Shown here: piece by piece, positions 7,584 to 21,094 of the stretch
Position numbering within the stretch: position 1 is the stretch's first letter
How the letters are laid out: the number at the start of each line of letters is the position of its first letter
Assembly (NCBI RefSeq): GCF_001514215.1
Contig: NZ_KQ948862.1
Coordinates: 124,001-188,000, forward strand
DNA length: 64,000 nucleotides
Source: Streptomyces bungoensis
GTDB taxonomy: Bacteria > Actinomycetota > Actinomycetes > Streptomycetales > Streptomycetaceae
Direction: 5' to 3'
Position numbers and translations under genes: made by a program
The notes under the pieces: generated by a model
The model's database searches: none
What the model was told of the DNA's origin: nothing
Seen by the model: the letters and a program-made list of their open reading frames with translations, nothing else

Positions 7584-10500
7584 CTAACGCTCCTGCTGGT
7601 GAGTGGGGCTCGGGAAGCTGCCGGTCTGGCCGCCGCCGGCCTGACGGCCCTGAGCGATGCCCCGACGGAGATTGGTCAGCCGGCCGCGTACGTCGTCAGG
7701 CGCACGGGAGACCTGCGGACCGCTCTGGTGCTGTTGCTGCTGCGCCGTGCCCGGGACGAGGTTCGCCCGGGGCACCCGCCGCGGCAGGCCGGAGGTGGTG
7801 ACACCGCCGGCCGCGGGCTGCCGGACGCGCTCCGCCTGCCGGACGAGTTCGTCGTTCGGCGAGGTGCGCCAGGAGCCGGTGGTGGAGGAATGGTGCGGGC
7901 CCGCGGGGGCCTGCTGCTGCGGAGCCTGGGCCGGAACCGCGGCTGGTGCCGCCTCCTGCTGCCCGCCCTGCTGTCCGCCGTGGAACCAGTTGGTCTCCAG
8001 CGTGTCGTACAGCGGGGTGCGGCCGTCGCCCGGACCGCTGGCCGGCGGAAGTGCCCAGCCGTCACCCGGTCCGCGTCCGTTGTCCGGCTGCTGCCGGACC
8101 GGACGCTGCTGCGGGGCCTGCGGCGCGGGGGCCTGCGGGCGCGGGGCGCCGAAGTCGGCGCGGCCGCCCGGCTGGGGACCCTCGAACCGGCCGGTGTCCG
8201 CCGGGCCCTGGCCCGGGCGGCCGGGCAGCGCGTGCCGCCCGGTGGAGCTGCCGTCGAAGCCGCCGCCGTAGCCGTTGTCGTAGGCCTGCGGGGCCGCGAA
8301 CTGGCCCGTGCTCTGCGGGTCCTGCTGCCCGGGCGCCGGCGTGCCGAACACGTCGGAGCGGACGAACGGATCCGTGCCGCCCTGCTGACCGAACTGGCCC
8401 GGCTGCTGCGGCTGCACGTTCGGGCGCGGGAACTGGCCCGTGGAGCCGCCGGCCGTTCCGAAGTCCGGGCGCGGGAACTCGCCCGTGGCGGACGGACCCT
8501 GCCGGTCGTCGATGCGGGGCATCTCCGCGGTCGCGCCCGGGCCCTGCCGGTCGTCGATGCGCGGCATGCGCGAGGTGTGCGCCGGGTCCTGCTCGTCGTG
8601 GCCGCGCGGGGTGTCCAGCGAGGCACGTGAGAGCGGGGCGCCGTCGTTCCAGTCCGGGGTGCGCGCGGGCGGGTTGGCGCCGGGCAGCTCGGCCCGCGGA
8701 CCGCCCCGCGGCGGCAGTTGCGGCTGACGGCCCTGGTCGGGGCCGGCGGCGGCGCCGCGCGGCGCCGCCGCACCGCGACCGCCGAAGGCGTCCTGCTGCT
8801 GCGGTCCGCCGGGGTTCGCGGCCTGCAGGCCCTGCGGGGCACCCGGCGCCTGGGAGGGGCCGCCGAAGCCGCCCGCACCGGCACCCGCCGCAGCTCCCGG
8901 CCGGCCGCCCTGCTGCGGCGCACCCGGTCCCTGCGGTCCGCGTGCTCCGCCCGGCGCACCGGGACGGGCGCCGGGGCCCGAACCGGGCAGCGCGGCCCGG
9001 GGACCCTGACCGGAGCCGACCTGGCCGCGCGGGCCCGGACCGGCACCGAGGAGTCCGCCGCCGGCGGGGGCACCGCCGAGGGCGCCGCCCTGGCCGCCGT
9101 TGCCGGCCGCGCGGCGGGCGGCCGCGGCACCGGCCGCGGCCTGCGCGGCGGCCGGACCACCGGTCGGCGCGGGGGCGCCGGGCTTGCCCGGAGCGGGCTT
9201 CTTGCCGCCCTGCGCGACGTCGACGGGCAGCATGACCAGCGCGGTCGTACCACCGGAGTCGGAGGGGCGCAGCTGGATGCGGATGCCGTGGCGCTGCGAT
9301 AGCCGGCCGACCACGAACAGACCCATGCGGCGGGAGACGGAGACGTCCACGGTGGGCGGCGAGGCGAGCCGTTCGTTGATCGCCGCGAGGTCCTCGGGGG
9401 AGAGGCCGATGCCGGTGTCGTGGATCTCGATCAGCACGCGGCCGTCGGGCAGCGCGTGACCGGTGACCTTGACCTTGGTCTGCGGGGAGGAGAACGAGGT
9501 GGCGTTCTCGAGCAGCTCGGCGAGCAGGTGCACGAGGTCGTTGACGACGCGGCCGGCGACCTCGGTCGTCGGCACGGCGGCCAGCTCGATGCGCTCGTAC
9601 TGCTCCACCTCGGACGCGGCGGCGCGGAGCACGTCGACCAGCGGCACGGGGCGGGTCCAGCGGCGGCCGGGCTCCTCGCCCGCGAGGACGAGGAGGTTCT
9701 CGCCGTTACGGCGCATACGGGTGGCGAGGTGGTCCAGCTTGAACAGCGACGACAGCTGGTCCGGGTCGGCCTCGCGGGACTCCAGTTCGGAGATCAGCGA
9801 CAGCTGACGCTGGATCAGGCCCTGGGAGCGGCGCGAGAGGTTGGTGAACATCGCGTTGACGTTGCCCCGCAGCAGGGCCTGCTCGGCGGCGAGGCGGACC
9901 GCCTCGCGGTGCACGTCGTCGAAGGCCGCGGCCACCTGGCCGATCTCGTCCCGGGAGTGCACACCGACCGACTCCACGGACGTGTCCACGTCCTGCGGGT
10001 CGGACTCCGACAGCTGCTTGACCAGCTCGGGCAGACGGTCCTGGGCGACCTTGGTGGCGGTCTCCTGCAGGCGGCGCAGCGAGCGGATCATGGAGCGGGC
10101 CACCACGAAGGCGCCGACCAGGGAGATGCCGAGCACCAGCAGGATCAGCGCACCGGAGATGATCGCGTCCTGCTCGGAGGACGCCTTCAGCTCGCGGGCC
10201 TTCTGCTCCATGTCCTCGAGCAGCGAGCGCTCGACGTTCTTCATCTGCTGGATCTTGGTGGAGCTGTCGTCCAGCCAGTCCCGGTACGAGCGGGCCGGCA
10301 GGCTGTCCAGACCGCTCGGGGACTCCAGGACCCGCTTGGCGTACAGGTCCGCGGACTGGATGATCGCGTTGCCGTCCTCGATCGGCTTCAGCAGCGCGTC
10401 CGGGTTCTCGCTGCTGTAGATCTTCCGGAAGATCGAGATCTGGGAGTTCTCGCTCTGGTACGCCGACTCGCCGTAGAGCTGGTCGTTCCGGGAGAGGTGA

Positions 10501-16218: not shown

Positions 16219-16290
16219 TGGCCTATGGTGTAATTGGCAGCACGACTGATTCTGGTTCAGTTAGTCTTGGTTCGAGTCCAGGTAGGCCAG
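16219..16290 (+). tRNA. tRNA-Gln (CTG)
   Basis: The 72-base cloverleaf has acceptor arms TGGCCTA/TAGGCCA, anticodon loop TTCTGGT (anticodon CTG) and T-arm TTCGAGT. No CCA is encoded. It is the first gene of a five-tRNA array. Confidence 0.96.
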
Positions 16291-16329
16291 CTCGCAGAGC
16301 TTATCTGCACCCGCGGATCACATCCGCGA

Positions 16330-16402
16330 GCCCCCGTTGTGTAGCGGCCTAGCACGCTGCCCTCTCAAGGCAGTAGCGCCGGTTCGAATCCGGTCGGGGG
16401 TA
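16330..16402 (+). tRNA. tRNA-Glu (CTC)
   Basis: The 73-base gene has acceptor arms GCCCCCG/CGGGGGT, anticodon loop CTCTCAA (anticodon CTC) on a CTGCC/GGCAG stem, and T-loop TTCGAAT. CCA is not encoded. Its anticodon stem differs by one base pair from the two later copies. Confidence 0.96.
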
Positions 16403-16431
16403 CTGATCCTGATCCTGTCGGGATCGCTAGG

Positions 16432-16504
16432 GCCCCCGTTGTGTAGCGGCCTAGCACGCCGCCCTCTCAAGGCGGTAGCGCCGGTTCGAATCCGGTCGGG
16501 GGTA
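16432..16504 (+). tRNA. tRNA-Glu (CTC)
   Basis: This is the second copy of tRNA-Glu with anticodon CTC. The anticodon stem is CCGCC/GGCGG instead of CTGCC/GGCAG, a compensated change relative to the copy at 16330-16402. Confidence 0.96.
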
Positions 16505-16525
16505 CTGACTGGTCTAAACCATCAT

Positions 16526-16597
16526 TGGTCTATGGTGTAATTGGCAGCACGACTGATTCTGGTTCAGTTAGTCTTGGTTCGAGTCCAGGTAGACCAG
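16526..16597 (+). tRNA. tRNA-Gln (CTG)
   Basis: This second tRNA-Gln is identical to the first except for a compensated acceptor-stem change: TGGTCTA/TAGACCA in place of TGGCCTA/TAGGCCA. The anticodon is CTG and CCA is not encoded. Confidence 0.96.
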
Positions 16598-16625
16598 CTC
16601 GGACCTGCGGAAACGCAGTGTCCAG

Positions 16626-16698
16626 GCCCCCGTTGTGTAGCGGCCTAGCACGCCGCCCTCTCAAGGCGGTAGCGCCGGTTCGAATCCGGTCGGGGGTA
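16626..16698 (+). tRNA. tRNA-Glu (CTC)
   Basis: This third tRNA-Glu copy is the same in sequence as the one at 16432-16504 and closes the array. A hairpin terminator follows immediately. Confidence 0.96.
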
Positions 16699-16701
16699 CG
16701 T

Positions 16702-17537: not shown

Positions 17538-18023
17538 ATGGGTGCCGAGTCGATCGAGGGGCGCATGACCGCCGAGCACGAGGAGGGGATCGTCGTCTTC
17601 CTCGTCGGGATGCGTATCAACAGCTTCTGGGCGGTGCGCAGTTGGCTGCCGGTCGCCAGGGCCATGGGCCCGATGATCGCCGAACTCGCGCAGGACCGGG
17701 ACAGCGGGCTGCTGGGGTACAAGGCCCTGCGCGCCGGGCTGCGCGAGGCGTACCTGGTGCAGTACTGGGAGTCGAAGGAGAAGCTGCTCGCCTACGCCTC
17801 CGCGCCGGACCGCAGTCACCGCCCGGCCTGGGCCGCGTTCAACCGGCGGCTGCGCGAGGGCAGGGGGAAGGTGGGCTTCTGGCACGAGACGTACGTCGTG
17901 CCCGCCGGGTCCCACGAGTCGATCTACCTGAACATGCCCGCGTACGGCCTGGCCGCGGCCACGGGGGTGGCGCCGGTCGCCCGCCGCGGGAACCGCGCCG
18001 CCGACCGGCTGGCCATCTCCTGA
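17538..18023 (+). CDS. DUF4188 (monooxygenase-like) family protein
   Basis: This 161-residue protein shows the DUF4188 pattern: GRMTAEHEEGIVVFLVGMRIN, WLPVARAMGPM, DSGLLGYKA, YWESKEKLLAYA, and a C-terminal FWHETYVVPAGSHESIYLNMPAYGL split around Gly and Ser. The fold is a ferredoxin-like dimeric barrel related to antibiotic monooxygenases; heme or flavin-free oxygenase activity is only inferred. The ATG at 17538 places about nine residues before MTAE as in relatives; an ATG at 17478 lies inside the palindrome and is less likely. Pairing with a divergent MerR gene suggests inducible expression. Confidence 0.82.
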   Translation: MGAESIEGRMTAEHEEGIVVFLVGMRINSFWAVRSWLPVARAMGPMIAELAQDRDSGLLGYKALRAGLREAYLVQYWESKEKLLAYASAPDRSHRPAWAAFNRRLREGRGKVGFWHETYVVPAGSHESIYLNMPAYGLAAATGVAPVARRGNRAADRLAIS

Positions 18024-18109
18024 GCGCGGACTGCCGCCGAGCGGCGTCCGGCTCGGCCGGGGCCGGCCCCATCCGATGCCGGTGGCGGTGCCACTGCGGT
18101 GGGGAGCGG

Positions 18110-18259
18110 TCAGCCTGAGCGGCGCGGGGCCCGCGGGAGGCGGGCCGCCGCACCGATGACCGCCTGGGCGCGCAAGCGGCCCGGGTGGCGGGACAGAGAC
18201 TCGACGGGGCCGCAGACCGGGACGGCCACTACGACGCCGTTCGACGGGCCTCGTACGAC
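18110..18259 (-). pseudogene. Decayed copy of the ndgR C-terminus
   Basis: Read on the minus strand and ending in TGA at 18112-18110, this stretch encodes a sequence co-linear with the last ~46 residues of NdgR: GPSNGVVVAVPVCGP, LSRHPGRLRAQAVIGAAARL and a final RRSG. By eye 34 of 46 residues agree and the frame is free of stops, but there is no N-terminal part or start region. It is a partial duplication of the gene at 18744-19460. Confidence 0.8.
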
Positions 18260-18299
18260 TCCCCTGAGTGCGGACGTCGCCGAACCGGCTCCCGCGCGC

Positions 18300-18743
18300 C
18301 CCGCGTCCTGCCGGAAGGGCCTTGCCGCGGCGTAGGAGCCGGTTCCTGTTGCTGGCGGTGGCGGTGGTGGTGCCCGAGGGGCCGGGCCGGCCGGAGCGGC
18401 GCGGGGCCTGCCTGTGACGGCTCGTCGTCGCTGGGCGTCCCGCTCGTCTCCCGTCCTGCCGGGAGGGCCTTGCCTATGGGCCGTCGTCGAGCGCCGTCCC
18501 GCGTTCGTCCCCCGTCCTGCCGCGGCGTTGAGGCCGGCCCTTACTGGTGGCGGTGGCGGGGTCGGGCTGGAGAGGCCGGCCAGCCGGAGCGGCGCCGGGT
18601 CTGCCTGAGACGGGTCGCCGTCGCTGGGCGTCCCGCTCGTCTCCCGTCTCTCGTCCCCCGTCCTGCCGGAAGGTCCTGCCGCGGCGTTGAGGCCGGCCCT
18701 TACTGGTGGCGGTGGTGGAGCGGGGGAGTGCCGAAGGGGTCGG
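18300..18743. repeat. Decayed tandem copies of the ndgR 3' end and its flank
   Basis: The 12-mer CCGGAGCGGCGC that marks the ndgR C-terminal codons at 18748 recurs at 18391 and 18584, each followed by a shortened, drifted version of the ndgR tail. The 3' flank recurs too: a 42-bp block at 18515-18556 is identical to 18674-18715 (offset 159), and a weaker copy starts near 18321. No gene is visible in this stretch. It is best read as repeated duplication of the ndgR end followed by deletion and drift. Confidence 0.75.
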
Positions 18744-19460
18744 TCAGCCGGAGCGGCGCAGGGCCTCCGAGAGGCGGGCCGCCGCGTCGATGACCGCCTG
18801 GGCGTGCATACGGCCCGGGTGGCGGGACAGGCGCTCGATGGGGCCGGAGACCGACACGGCCGCCACCACGCGGTTCGACGGGCCGCGCACGGGCGCGGAG
18901 ACGGAGGCCACGCCCGGCTCGCGCTCGCCGATGGACTGGGCCCAGCCCCGGCGCCGGACGCCCGACAGGGCCGTCGCCGTGAAGCGGGCGCCCTGCAGGC
19001 CGCGGTGCAGCCGCTCGGGCTCCTCCCAGGCCATCAGGATCTGCGCCGACGAACCGGCCTTCATCGTGAGCGTGGAGCCGACCGGGACCGTGTCCCGCAG
19101 ACCGGACAGGCGCTCCGCCGCGGCGACGCAGATCCGCATGTCGCCCTGGCGGCGGTAGAGCTGCGCGCTCTCGCCGGTGACGTCGCGCAGGTGGGTCAGC
19201 ACCGGGCCAGCGGTGGCCAGCAGGCGGTCCTCGCCGGCCGCCGCGGCCAGCTCCGCCAGGCGCGGGCCGAGGATGAACCGGCCCTGCATGTCTCGTGCCA
19301 CCATGCGGTGGTGTTCCAGGGCCACGGCCAGGCGGTGGGCCGTGGGTCGTGCCAGTCCGGTCGCGCCGACCAGACCCGCGAGGGTGGCCGGACCGGACTC
19401 CAGAGCGCTCAGGACGAGGGCCGCCTTGTCCAGAACGCCGACGCCGCTACTGTTGTCCAT
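18744..19460 (-). CDS. ndgR: IclR-family regulator NdgR
   Basis: This 238-residue IclR-type regulator has an N-terminal winged helix (LDKAALVLSALESGPATLAG, TGLARPTAHRLAVALEHH) and a C-terminal effector domain beginning around RFILGPRLAELAAAAG. NdgR controls leucine and other amino-acid genes, nitrogen-source-dependent growth and antibiotic production in streptomycetes. It is divergent from leuC, its known target, across a 209-base region holding an IclR-like inverted repeat at 19473-19493. Start at ATG 19460 gives MDNSSGVGVLDKA and the usual family length. Confidence 0.95.
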   Translation of the reverse strand: MDNSSGVGVLDKAALVLSALESGPATLAGLVGATGLARPTAHRLAVALEHHRMVARDMQGRFILGPRLAELAAAAGEDRLLATAGPVLTHLRDVTGESAQLYRRQGDMRICVAAAERLSGLRDTVPVGSTLTMKAGSSAQILMAWEEPERLHRGLQGARFTATALSGVRRRGWAQSIGEREPGVASVSAPVRGPSNRVVAAVSVSGPIERLSRHPGRMHAQAVIDAAARLSEALRRSG

Positions 19461-19472
19461 GAAACGATACTC

Positions 19473-19493
19473 GCGTCTCACTCTGTGAAACGC
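19473..19493. promoter_or_regulatory. Probable NdgR operator upstream of leuC and ndgR
   Basis: GCGTCTCAC-TCT-GTGAAACGC is an inverted repeat with 8 of 9 arm positions paired, lying 12 bases upstream of the ndgR start. Position between ndgR and leuC makes autoregulation plus leuCD control likely. Binding is inferred. Confidence 0.55.
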
Positions 19494-19669
19494 AAGTTCA
19501 ATTTTCCATGGAACGCGCCACTCTGGAATCACACAGCGGCCCGCGGACCATCGGGCCCGGCGGTGGACGCCCGGAATCACCACTTCATGGGGCCCGGCAG
19601 ACGGGCGGTCGCCGCATCCTCAAGATCTCTAGTTGGGCCGGTGGACGTTTGCCGGCCGGAGGGAAAGCG

Positions 19670-21094
19670 ATGGGTAGGACACTCGCGGAGAAGGTCTGGG
19701 ACGACCACGTCGTCCGGCGCGCCGAGGGCGAGCCCGACCTCCTCTACATCGATCTGCACCTGCTGCACGAGGTGACCAGCCCGCAGGCCTTCGACGGGCT
19801 GCGCAAGAGCGGCCGGCAGGTGCGGCGCCTCGACCTCACCATCGCGACCGAGGACCACAACACCCCGACCATCGACATCGACAAGCCCATCGCCGACCCG
19901 GTCTCCCGGGCCCAGCTGGAGACGCTGCGCAAGAACTGCGCCGAGTTCGGCGTCCGGCTGCACCCGCTGGGCGACGTCGAGCAGGGCGTCGTGCACGTGG
20001 TCGGTCCCCAGCTGGGTCTGACCCAGCCGGGCACCACCGTGGTCTGCGGTGACTCCCACACCTCCACGCACGGCGCCTTCGGCGCGCTGGCGTTCGGCAT
20101 CGGCACCTCCCAGGTGGAGCACGTGCTGGCCACCCAGACGCTGCCGATGGCCCGCCCGAAGACCATGGCGATCACCGTCGAGGGCGAGCTGCCCGAGGGC
20201 GTCACCGCCAAGGACCTGATCCTGGCGATCATCGCGAAGATCGGCACCGGCGGCGGCCAGGGCTACGTCCTGGAGTACCGCGGCTCCGCCATCGAGAAGC
20301 TCTCGATGGAGGCCCGGATGACCATCTGCAACATGTCGATCGAGGCCGGCGCCCGCGCGGGCATGATCGCCCCGGACGAGACGACCTTCGCGTACCTCCA
20401 GGGCCGTCCGCACGCCCCCGAGGGCGCCGACTGGGACGCGGCGGTCGCGTACTGGAAGACCCTGCGGACCGACGAGGACGCCGTCTTCGACGCCGAGGTC
20501 GTCATCGACGCCGCCGAGCTGTCCCCGTTCGTCACCTGGGGCACCAACCCCGGCCAGGGCGCGCCGCTTTCGGCGTCCGTCCCCGACCCGGCTTCGTACG
20601 AAGACGCCTCGGAGCGCCTCGCCGCCGAAAAGGCCCTGGAGTACATGGGGTTGGAGGCCGGGCAGCCGCTGCGCTCCATCGACGTGGACACGGTCTTCGT
20701 AGGCTCCTGCACCAACGGCCGCATCGAGGACCTGCGCGCCGCCGCGGACGTCGTGCGGGGCCGCAAAGTCGCCGACGGCGTACGGATGCTGGTCGTCCCG
20801 GGCTCCGCGCGCGTCGGGCTGCAGGCCGTCTCCGAGGGCCTGGACGTCGTCTTCAAGGAGGCCGGTGCCGAATGGCGGCACGCCGGCTGCTCGATGTGCC
20901 TCGGCATGAACCCCGACCAGCTGGCCCCGGGGGAGCGCTCCGCCTCCACCTCCAACCGCAACTTCGAGGGCCGGCAGGGCAAGGGCGGCCGCACCCACCT
21001 GGTGTCCCCGCAGGTCGCGGCCGCGACCGCCGTCCTGGGCCACCTGGCCTCGCCCGCCGACCTGTCCGACGCCCCCGCGCCCGCTGGAGTCTGA
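19670..21094 (+). CDS. leuC: 3-isopropylmalate dehydratase large subunit
   Basis: This 474-residue aconitase-family subunit contains the 4Fe-4S ligands C347 ([12 protein letters not shown]) and C407/C410 (GCSMCLGMN), plus the substrate-site segments [15 protein letters not shown] and [13 protein letters not shown]. With LeuD it isomerises 2-isopropylmalate to 3-isopropylmalate in leucine synthesis. ATG 19670 has a GGAGGG site. leuD follows after six bases, forming an operon controlled from the ndgR-leuC region. Confidence 0.97.

Follow-up and report, generated by a model that had tools for sequence, protein, structure and literature searches.

The window analysed here, a 64,000-nucleotide stretch of the Streptomyces bungoensis genome, carries ndgR, a gene for an IclR-type regulator (Pfam IclR_C, 6e-24; HTH_IclR, 2e-8) that is divergent from leuC on one side and convergent with an af470-like monooxygenase gene on the other (Table 1). 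The NdgR protein is 97-100% identical across the 80 best named loci, which are the top 80 by likeness to NdgR and not a random draw, and whose titles all name Streptomyces except that of L022, a Kitasatospora. In relatives the monooxygenase gene is contiguous with the ndgR tail and anchors the ancestral junction: in many loci it lies ~20-140 bp past the ndgR stop codon, with longer gaps of 289 bp (L071), 412 bp (L152), 427 bp (L045) and 822 bp (L151) occurring too. In S. bungoensis the ndgR stop codon is trailed by four units, numbered 0 to 3, which read in the orientation of ndgR and consist of adjacent copies in the same orientation and in register.

Table 1. Features of the ndgR locus, in window coordinates, with the evidence for each; R1 is a model of the hairpin that follows ndgR.
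Feature	Position	Strand	Evidence or remark
ndgR, IclR-type regulator, original gene	18744..19463	-	stop codon 18744-18746, ATG at 19460
Unit 0 hairpin, directly after ndgR; stem weak in own genome, loop intact	18660..18710	-	R1 53.6 bits (sequence is part of the model)
Unit 1 decayed ndgR tail copy	18578..18640	-	alignments to ndgR end
Unit 1 hairpin, lower 3' arm lost	18501..18551	-	R1 38.5 bits
Unit 2 decayed ndgR tail copy	18385..18468	-	self-alignment
Unit 2 mutated hairpin, loop changed	18306..18356	-	R1 14.5 bits, beside background 13.8 and 12.8 bits
Unit 2 far end	18260..18312	-	resembles flank into monooxygenase stop (18016-18068)
Unit 3, 148-bp ndgR 3'-end copy; pseudogene fragment where the ndgR tail lay ancestrally	18110..18257	-	ndgR nt 573-720
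Unit 3, ndgR 3' flank remnant, loop lost	18059..18109	-	alignment extends to 18061
Monooxygenase (af470-like) gene, convergent neighbour of ndgR	17538..18023	+	Pfam PF13826, 6.8e-42

An earlier, sequence-only reading of this DNA had described a 150-bp copy of the ndgR C-terminus lying 634 bp from the original, with an open frame and its stop codon kept. The copy, its distance, its frame and its stop codon all stand; its size and start do not, since the copied stop codon occupies 18110-18112, and unit 3 thus begins at 18110 instead of 18108. Unit 3 matches the corresponding end of ndgR over 148 nt at 84.5% identity (E 3e-41 against the locus set), and the high likeness claimed for its translation holds once the figure of 34 in 46 residues is corrected to 36 in 48. 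Self-alignment of the region, the check proposed with that reading, returns significant direct repeats, of which 18095-18257 repeats 18729-18891 over 163 nt at 83% identity and a spacing of 634 bp. When the whole genome of the strain was searched with 18024-18743, two places were returned at E <= 0.001, namely the query itself and the end of ndgR (E 5e-43).

Two shorter and more decayed copies do lie between these ends, and in the self-comparison of the locus they rise above chance, over 112 bp at 82% (E 7e-29) and 114 bp at 76% (E 5e-18). Within unit 1, the segment 18581-18620 corresponds to ndgR nt 680-719 at 82.5% identity, and 18581-18640 aligns to 18745-18805 with a score of 27.3 against 19.8 for the best of 300 shuffles; the tail of unit 2 scores 21.4 against a top of 19.8 in 300 shuffles and is weak beyond its last 20-30 nt. 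Units 1 and 2 are 92% alike over 71 nt (18385-18455 in unit 2). CCGGAG-type marks at 18748, 18584, 18391 and 18114 have exactly the spacings first reported (164, 193 and 277 bp), and the identical block found 159 bp apart in units 0 and 1 proves to be 43 bp long, not 42 (18673-18715 and 18514-18556); it is also no plain flank, as had been assumed, and belongs to a hairpin that 72 of the 80 named loci have behind ndgR. The resemblance of the far end of unit 2 to the flank running into the monooxygenase stop codon is a modest match (score 21.0, with one in 1000 shuffles as high), the alternative source, further upstream in ndgR, scoring 12.2, a value equalled by 577 of 1000 shuffles. Modest as it is, this likeness would show where the duplicated unit ends. 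Only the sequence divergence among the array's copies excludes an assembly error. Between unit 3 and the monooxygenase gene, at 18030-18092, a stable minus-strand hairpin is predicted (-36.8 kcal/mol, z -1.4).

The hairpin that follows ndgR is itself widely kept. Within 200 nt of the ndgR stop codon, CAACGCCGC occurs at 118 of 146 loci (not all of them from different genomes), and in 117 of these 118 carriers the loop starts 22-64 nt past the stop codon, the remaining one having it at 117 nt. The loop, YCAACGCCGC, shows little or no variation. Seventy-nine sequences were aligned without gaps (A1, comprising the window and 78 of 81 picked sequences); in this alignment ten of the eleven stem pairs show changes on both sides, with 125 such cells where shuffling gives 40, and the covariation is lost when the partner arm is slid. 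A1 leans towards regular members because the variants L059, L075 and L086 were left out of it, and in 44 of the 79 sequences the stem pair at columns 17-34 is not formed. The model built from A1, R1, matches right after ndgR in 72 of the 80 named loci, a count that is partly so by construction because R1 was built with many of these same loci. Under strict filters, a separate draw gave R1 matches in 19 of 246 genomes of the class; within the genus 15 of 22 did so and seven did not, and at four weak matches from outside the genus (G474, G510, G574 and G602) the fetched stretches held neither ndgR nor the full loop.

Beyond the ndgR locus, R1 finds one chance-level match in the strain's own genome (E 1.35), and a 16-mer of the loop occurs there twice, both times inside the array. 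Among family genomes the same 16-mer is present in 152 of 297, matches that are no proof of presence because a backwards control also matches a good number. Set beside other genes by their first 120 nt of 3' flank, ndgR shares CAACGCCGC in 72 of 80 loci, leuD a 9-mer in 51 of 79 and gltX a 9-mer in 32 of 69, in a comparison where a tRNA gene lies in the HAD flank and the leuC sample (13) is unreliable; the ndgR loop stands out, yet not beyond all comparison. The 3' flank of leuD (L001-L080) has a GTACCCCCGATC-like string common to ~62-65% of its 79 loci. Inside the array the full stem survives in the unit 0 copy only, and even there it is weak (fold z +0.73). The loop and upper stem of unit 1 fall within the 43-bp block, and the best R1 match in the flank of unit 3, at 11.1 bits, equals background, with no hairpin there.

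Comparison with ndgR downstream regions elsewhere, a further check suggested at the outset, found no comparable second tail among 135 other distinct ndgR loci (best 44 nt, 75%) in a survey of 136 distinct loci, the window included, with four others too short to test. Six further loci have one tail each and no second; among the matches listed, none of 294 other genomes exceeds one tail-sized stretch of 18024-18743 (best 150 bits), and those listed in 80 additional genomes hold no array. Smaller self-matches do exist: L160 repeats 44 nt of tail at 75% some 1 kb downstream (E 7e-4) and L047 repeats 52 nt of an inner part of ndgR (E 5e-5), both of which we take for chance, while the match in L167 comprises 25 nt of the hairpin. 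Just after ndgR in L156 (G443) there is a short tandem repeat of 16 bp and GGGAGCCGTCACGCCC type, and CAACGCCGC is absent from that place. In G196:C12 the entire ndgR locus is found twice (L201 and L202), ~44 kb apart and in opposite orientation, the two being 99.2-99.5% identical over ~5.2 kb and both including a complete ndgR with its hairpin; this doubling is a large inverted duplication or an assembly effect, and no tandem array.

The relatives also disclose which copy holds the old position. In a search of 392 genomes, a single match in each of G144, G153 and G234 spans the monooxygenase gene, the spacer and the true ndgR tail, and it aligns to window positions 17600/17605-18257 at 77-79% identity. 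From this continuity it follows that unit 3 lies where the ndgR tail originally stood, and that the DNA from unit 3 to the present ndgR stop codon was added. Elsewhere the added DNA has short matches only, the longest among those listed for 150 genomes, its own included, being ~105 nt at 71%.

A copy at the ancestral monooxygenase junction is also what would be left if a foreign ndgR had replaced most of the resident gene, by homology at one end and illegitimate joining at the other, leaving the resident tail as unit 3; a tree built from 67 of the 141 tails likewise fails to join unit 3 with the strain's own gene. That tree is undecided because unit 3 forms a very long branch, and an AU test on it does not reject grouping the two (p 0.39). 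What speaks against such a replacement is the detail of the sequence. Of 150 sites compared, nine set the strain's own ndgR tail apart from the majority state among 139 distinct orthologous tails, and unit 3 has the state of its own gene at eight of the nine, including states seen in 1% and 7% of orthologues, where orthologues reach seven at most (mean 2.8) and none of the 139 attains eight. The sequence nearest to unit 3 is the strain's own ndgR (125 of 148 positions), the next nearest reaching 121, and the two middle copies would go unexplained. With eight of nine states shared and its own gene nearest, import is unlikely, and we consider the replacement of a resident gene very improbable; the array appears, on the evidence of these shared states, to have been born in its own lineage and not imported. 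Could unit 3 instead be a coding fragment, young or functional, that selection has retained? Its open frame had been read as a hint of youth or selection, and frame, stop codon and 36 identical residues of 48 all lend themselves to that view. The 23 differences from ndgR, however, are spread evenly over codon positions (7, 7 and 9), where orthologues pooled from loci that are non-independent, some sharing one genome, give 269, 63 and 1608; frame and stop codon are kept in 39% of neutral simulations, random sequence of the same composition leaves the frame open in 69%, and the 36 identical residues lie slightly above a neutral mean of 32.9 (P 0.078). Given that even spread, and with an open frame likely enough by chance, nothing points to coding constraint: unit 3 has decayed without it, the reading as a selected fragment is barely credible, and unit 3 would be no expressed gene. 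In high-G+C DNA, an open frame is no indicator of selection.

It is somewhat easier to imagine, if still unlikely, that selection has kept the array for its extra hairpins, which would act behind ndgR as additional sites of termination or regulation. The hairpin behind ndgR is conserved, with a covarying stem and a nearly invariant loop, and the loop-bearing 43-bp block is identical in units 0 and 1 despite diverged flanks. Yet the copies do not look maintained: unit 1 lacks the lower 3' arm and scores well below unit 0, unit 2 scores in the background range, unit 3 has no hairpin, and no such array was seen at the other ndgR loci examined.

The locus is very probably, in our judgement, a degenerate tandem array that arose in its own lineage when the ndgR 3' end was partially duplicated and has since drifted neutrally, and the original suggestion of repeated tandem duplication is borne out by the in-register repeats, by the strain's own gene being nearest and by the ancestral junction at unit 3. 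A segment running from about ndgR codon 191, through the stop codon and hairpin, to about the monooxygenase stop codon would have been duplicated head to tail, by slippage or illegitimate recombination; because the end of unit 2 resembles the flank of the monooxygenase stop codon, the first segment probably reached from codon 191 to the end of the neighbouring gene, or ~240 bp. The copy on the ndgR side would then complete the gene and the far copy, as its position at 18110-18257 attests, retain the old monooxygenase junction. The two middle units may stem from later, smaller duplications or from conversion between copies, the 92% likeness of units 1 and 2 and the identical 43-bp block implying later steps of other sizes and ages; uniform decay would not have left that block so intact, and the account needs conversion, a recent step or selection besides. 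The hairpin would have been carried along, to be kept in unit 0, to lose its lower 3' arm in unit 1 and to lose its loop in units 2 and 3. The bases missing from the unit 1 arm lie, in unit 0, between two GGCAGGAC repeats, and their loss may resemble a slippage deletion between them. Partial tandem gene duplications are known to decay into pseudogene fragments. The array is like them in being head to tail and in register, nearest to its own neighbouring gene, unseen in relatives and subject to neutral decay; it differs in that several steps, unequal in age, came together at a single place and in that the unit includes a conserved 3' hairpin. It is a small record of how a gene tail is duplicated and eroded in a high-G+C chromosome.

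The better value of the array may be as a pointer to a conserved, fixed-loop 3' hairpin behind a global regulator of amino-acid and stress functions, and the hairpin may be more interesting than the array itself. Searched against Rfam, the whole window yields tRNAs only; the hairpin belongs to no family at gathering score, and the two matches within 18020-19700 both fall far below it. Five consecutive tRNA genes stand at 16219-16699 in the order Gln-Glu-Glu-Gln-Glu, the Glu genes being 97-100% alike, and a 99-nt tRNA-Gly called by ARAGORN at 9053-9151, absent under the Rfam tRNA model, is probably spurious. Intrinsic transcription terminators consist of a G+C-rich stem-loop and then a T run. 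The ndgR hairpin resembles them as a G+C-rich stem-loop shortly past a stop codon, and differs in having a nearly invariant loop and no T run, the longest run in the ten bases after the stem being 0-2 T in 78 of 79 sequences and three in one; a separate terminator scan found none, with loops of 3-8 nt allowed, against 10 nt for this loop. REP and BIME elements are hairpin-bearing intergenic repeats with many dispersed copies per genome, and the array, likewise made of hairpin-bearing repeats between genes, differs from these and from MITEs in not being dispersed, its loop 16-mer being confined to the array in this genome.

No description of the hairpin was found among titles and the openings of abstracts (ndgR with terminator; conserved Streptomyces 3' RNAs), a scope outside which most subscription journals lie, and the main text of PMC8269248 does not mention ndgR. 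From its covariation and fixed loop, the hairpin is a candidate new RNA element. We suggest, tentatively and as a possibility that we would not favour over its opposite, that it is an RNA element kept widely in Streptomyces, with a loop, YCAACGCCGC, that a specific small RNA or protein partner reads, so deciding what becomes of the ndgR mRNA or of an RNA derived from its 3' end; the present genome would then amount to a natural experiment, the element having been multiplied here and mostly lost afterwards. Pairing of the loop with ndgR codons 4-9 (GCGGCGTC, CGGCGTT), which are unusually conserved, was considered and rejected, since these codons are equally conserved in genomes without the loop and no matching codon change accompanies loop variants. 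At the 5' end of ndgR, codons 1-45 (19326-19460) are under strong synonymous constraint, and rare codons persist there: of 138 orthologues, 130 have GTT at codon 9 (background 6%), 131 have GCA at codon 37 and 117 have CGA at codon 38.
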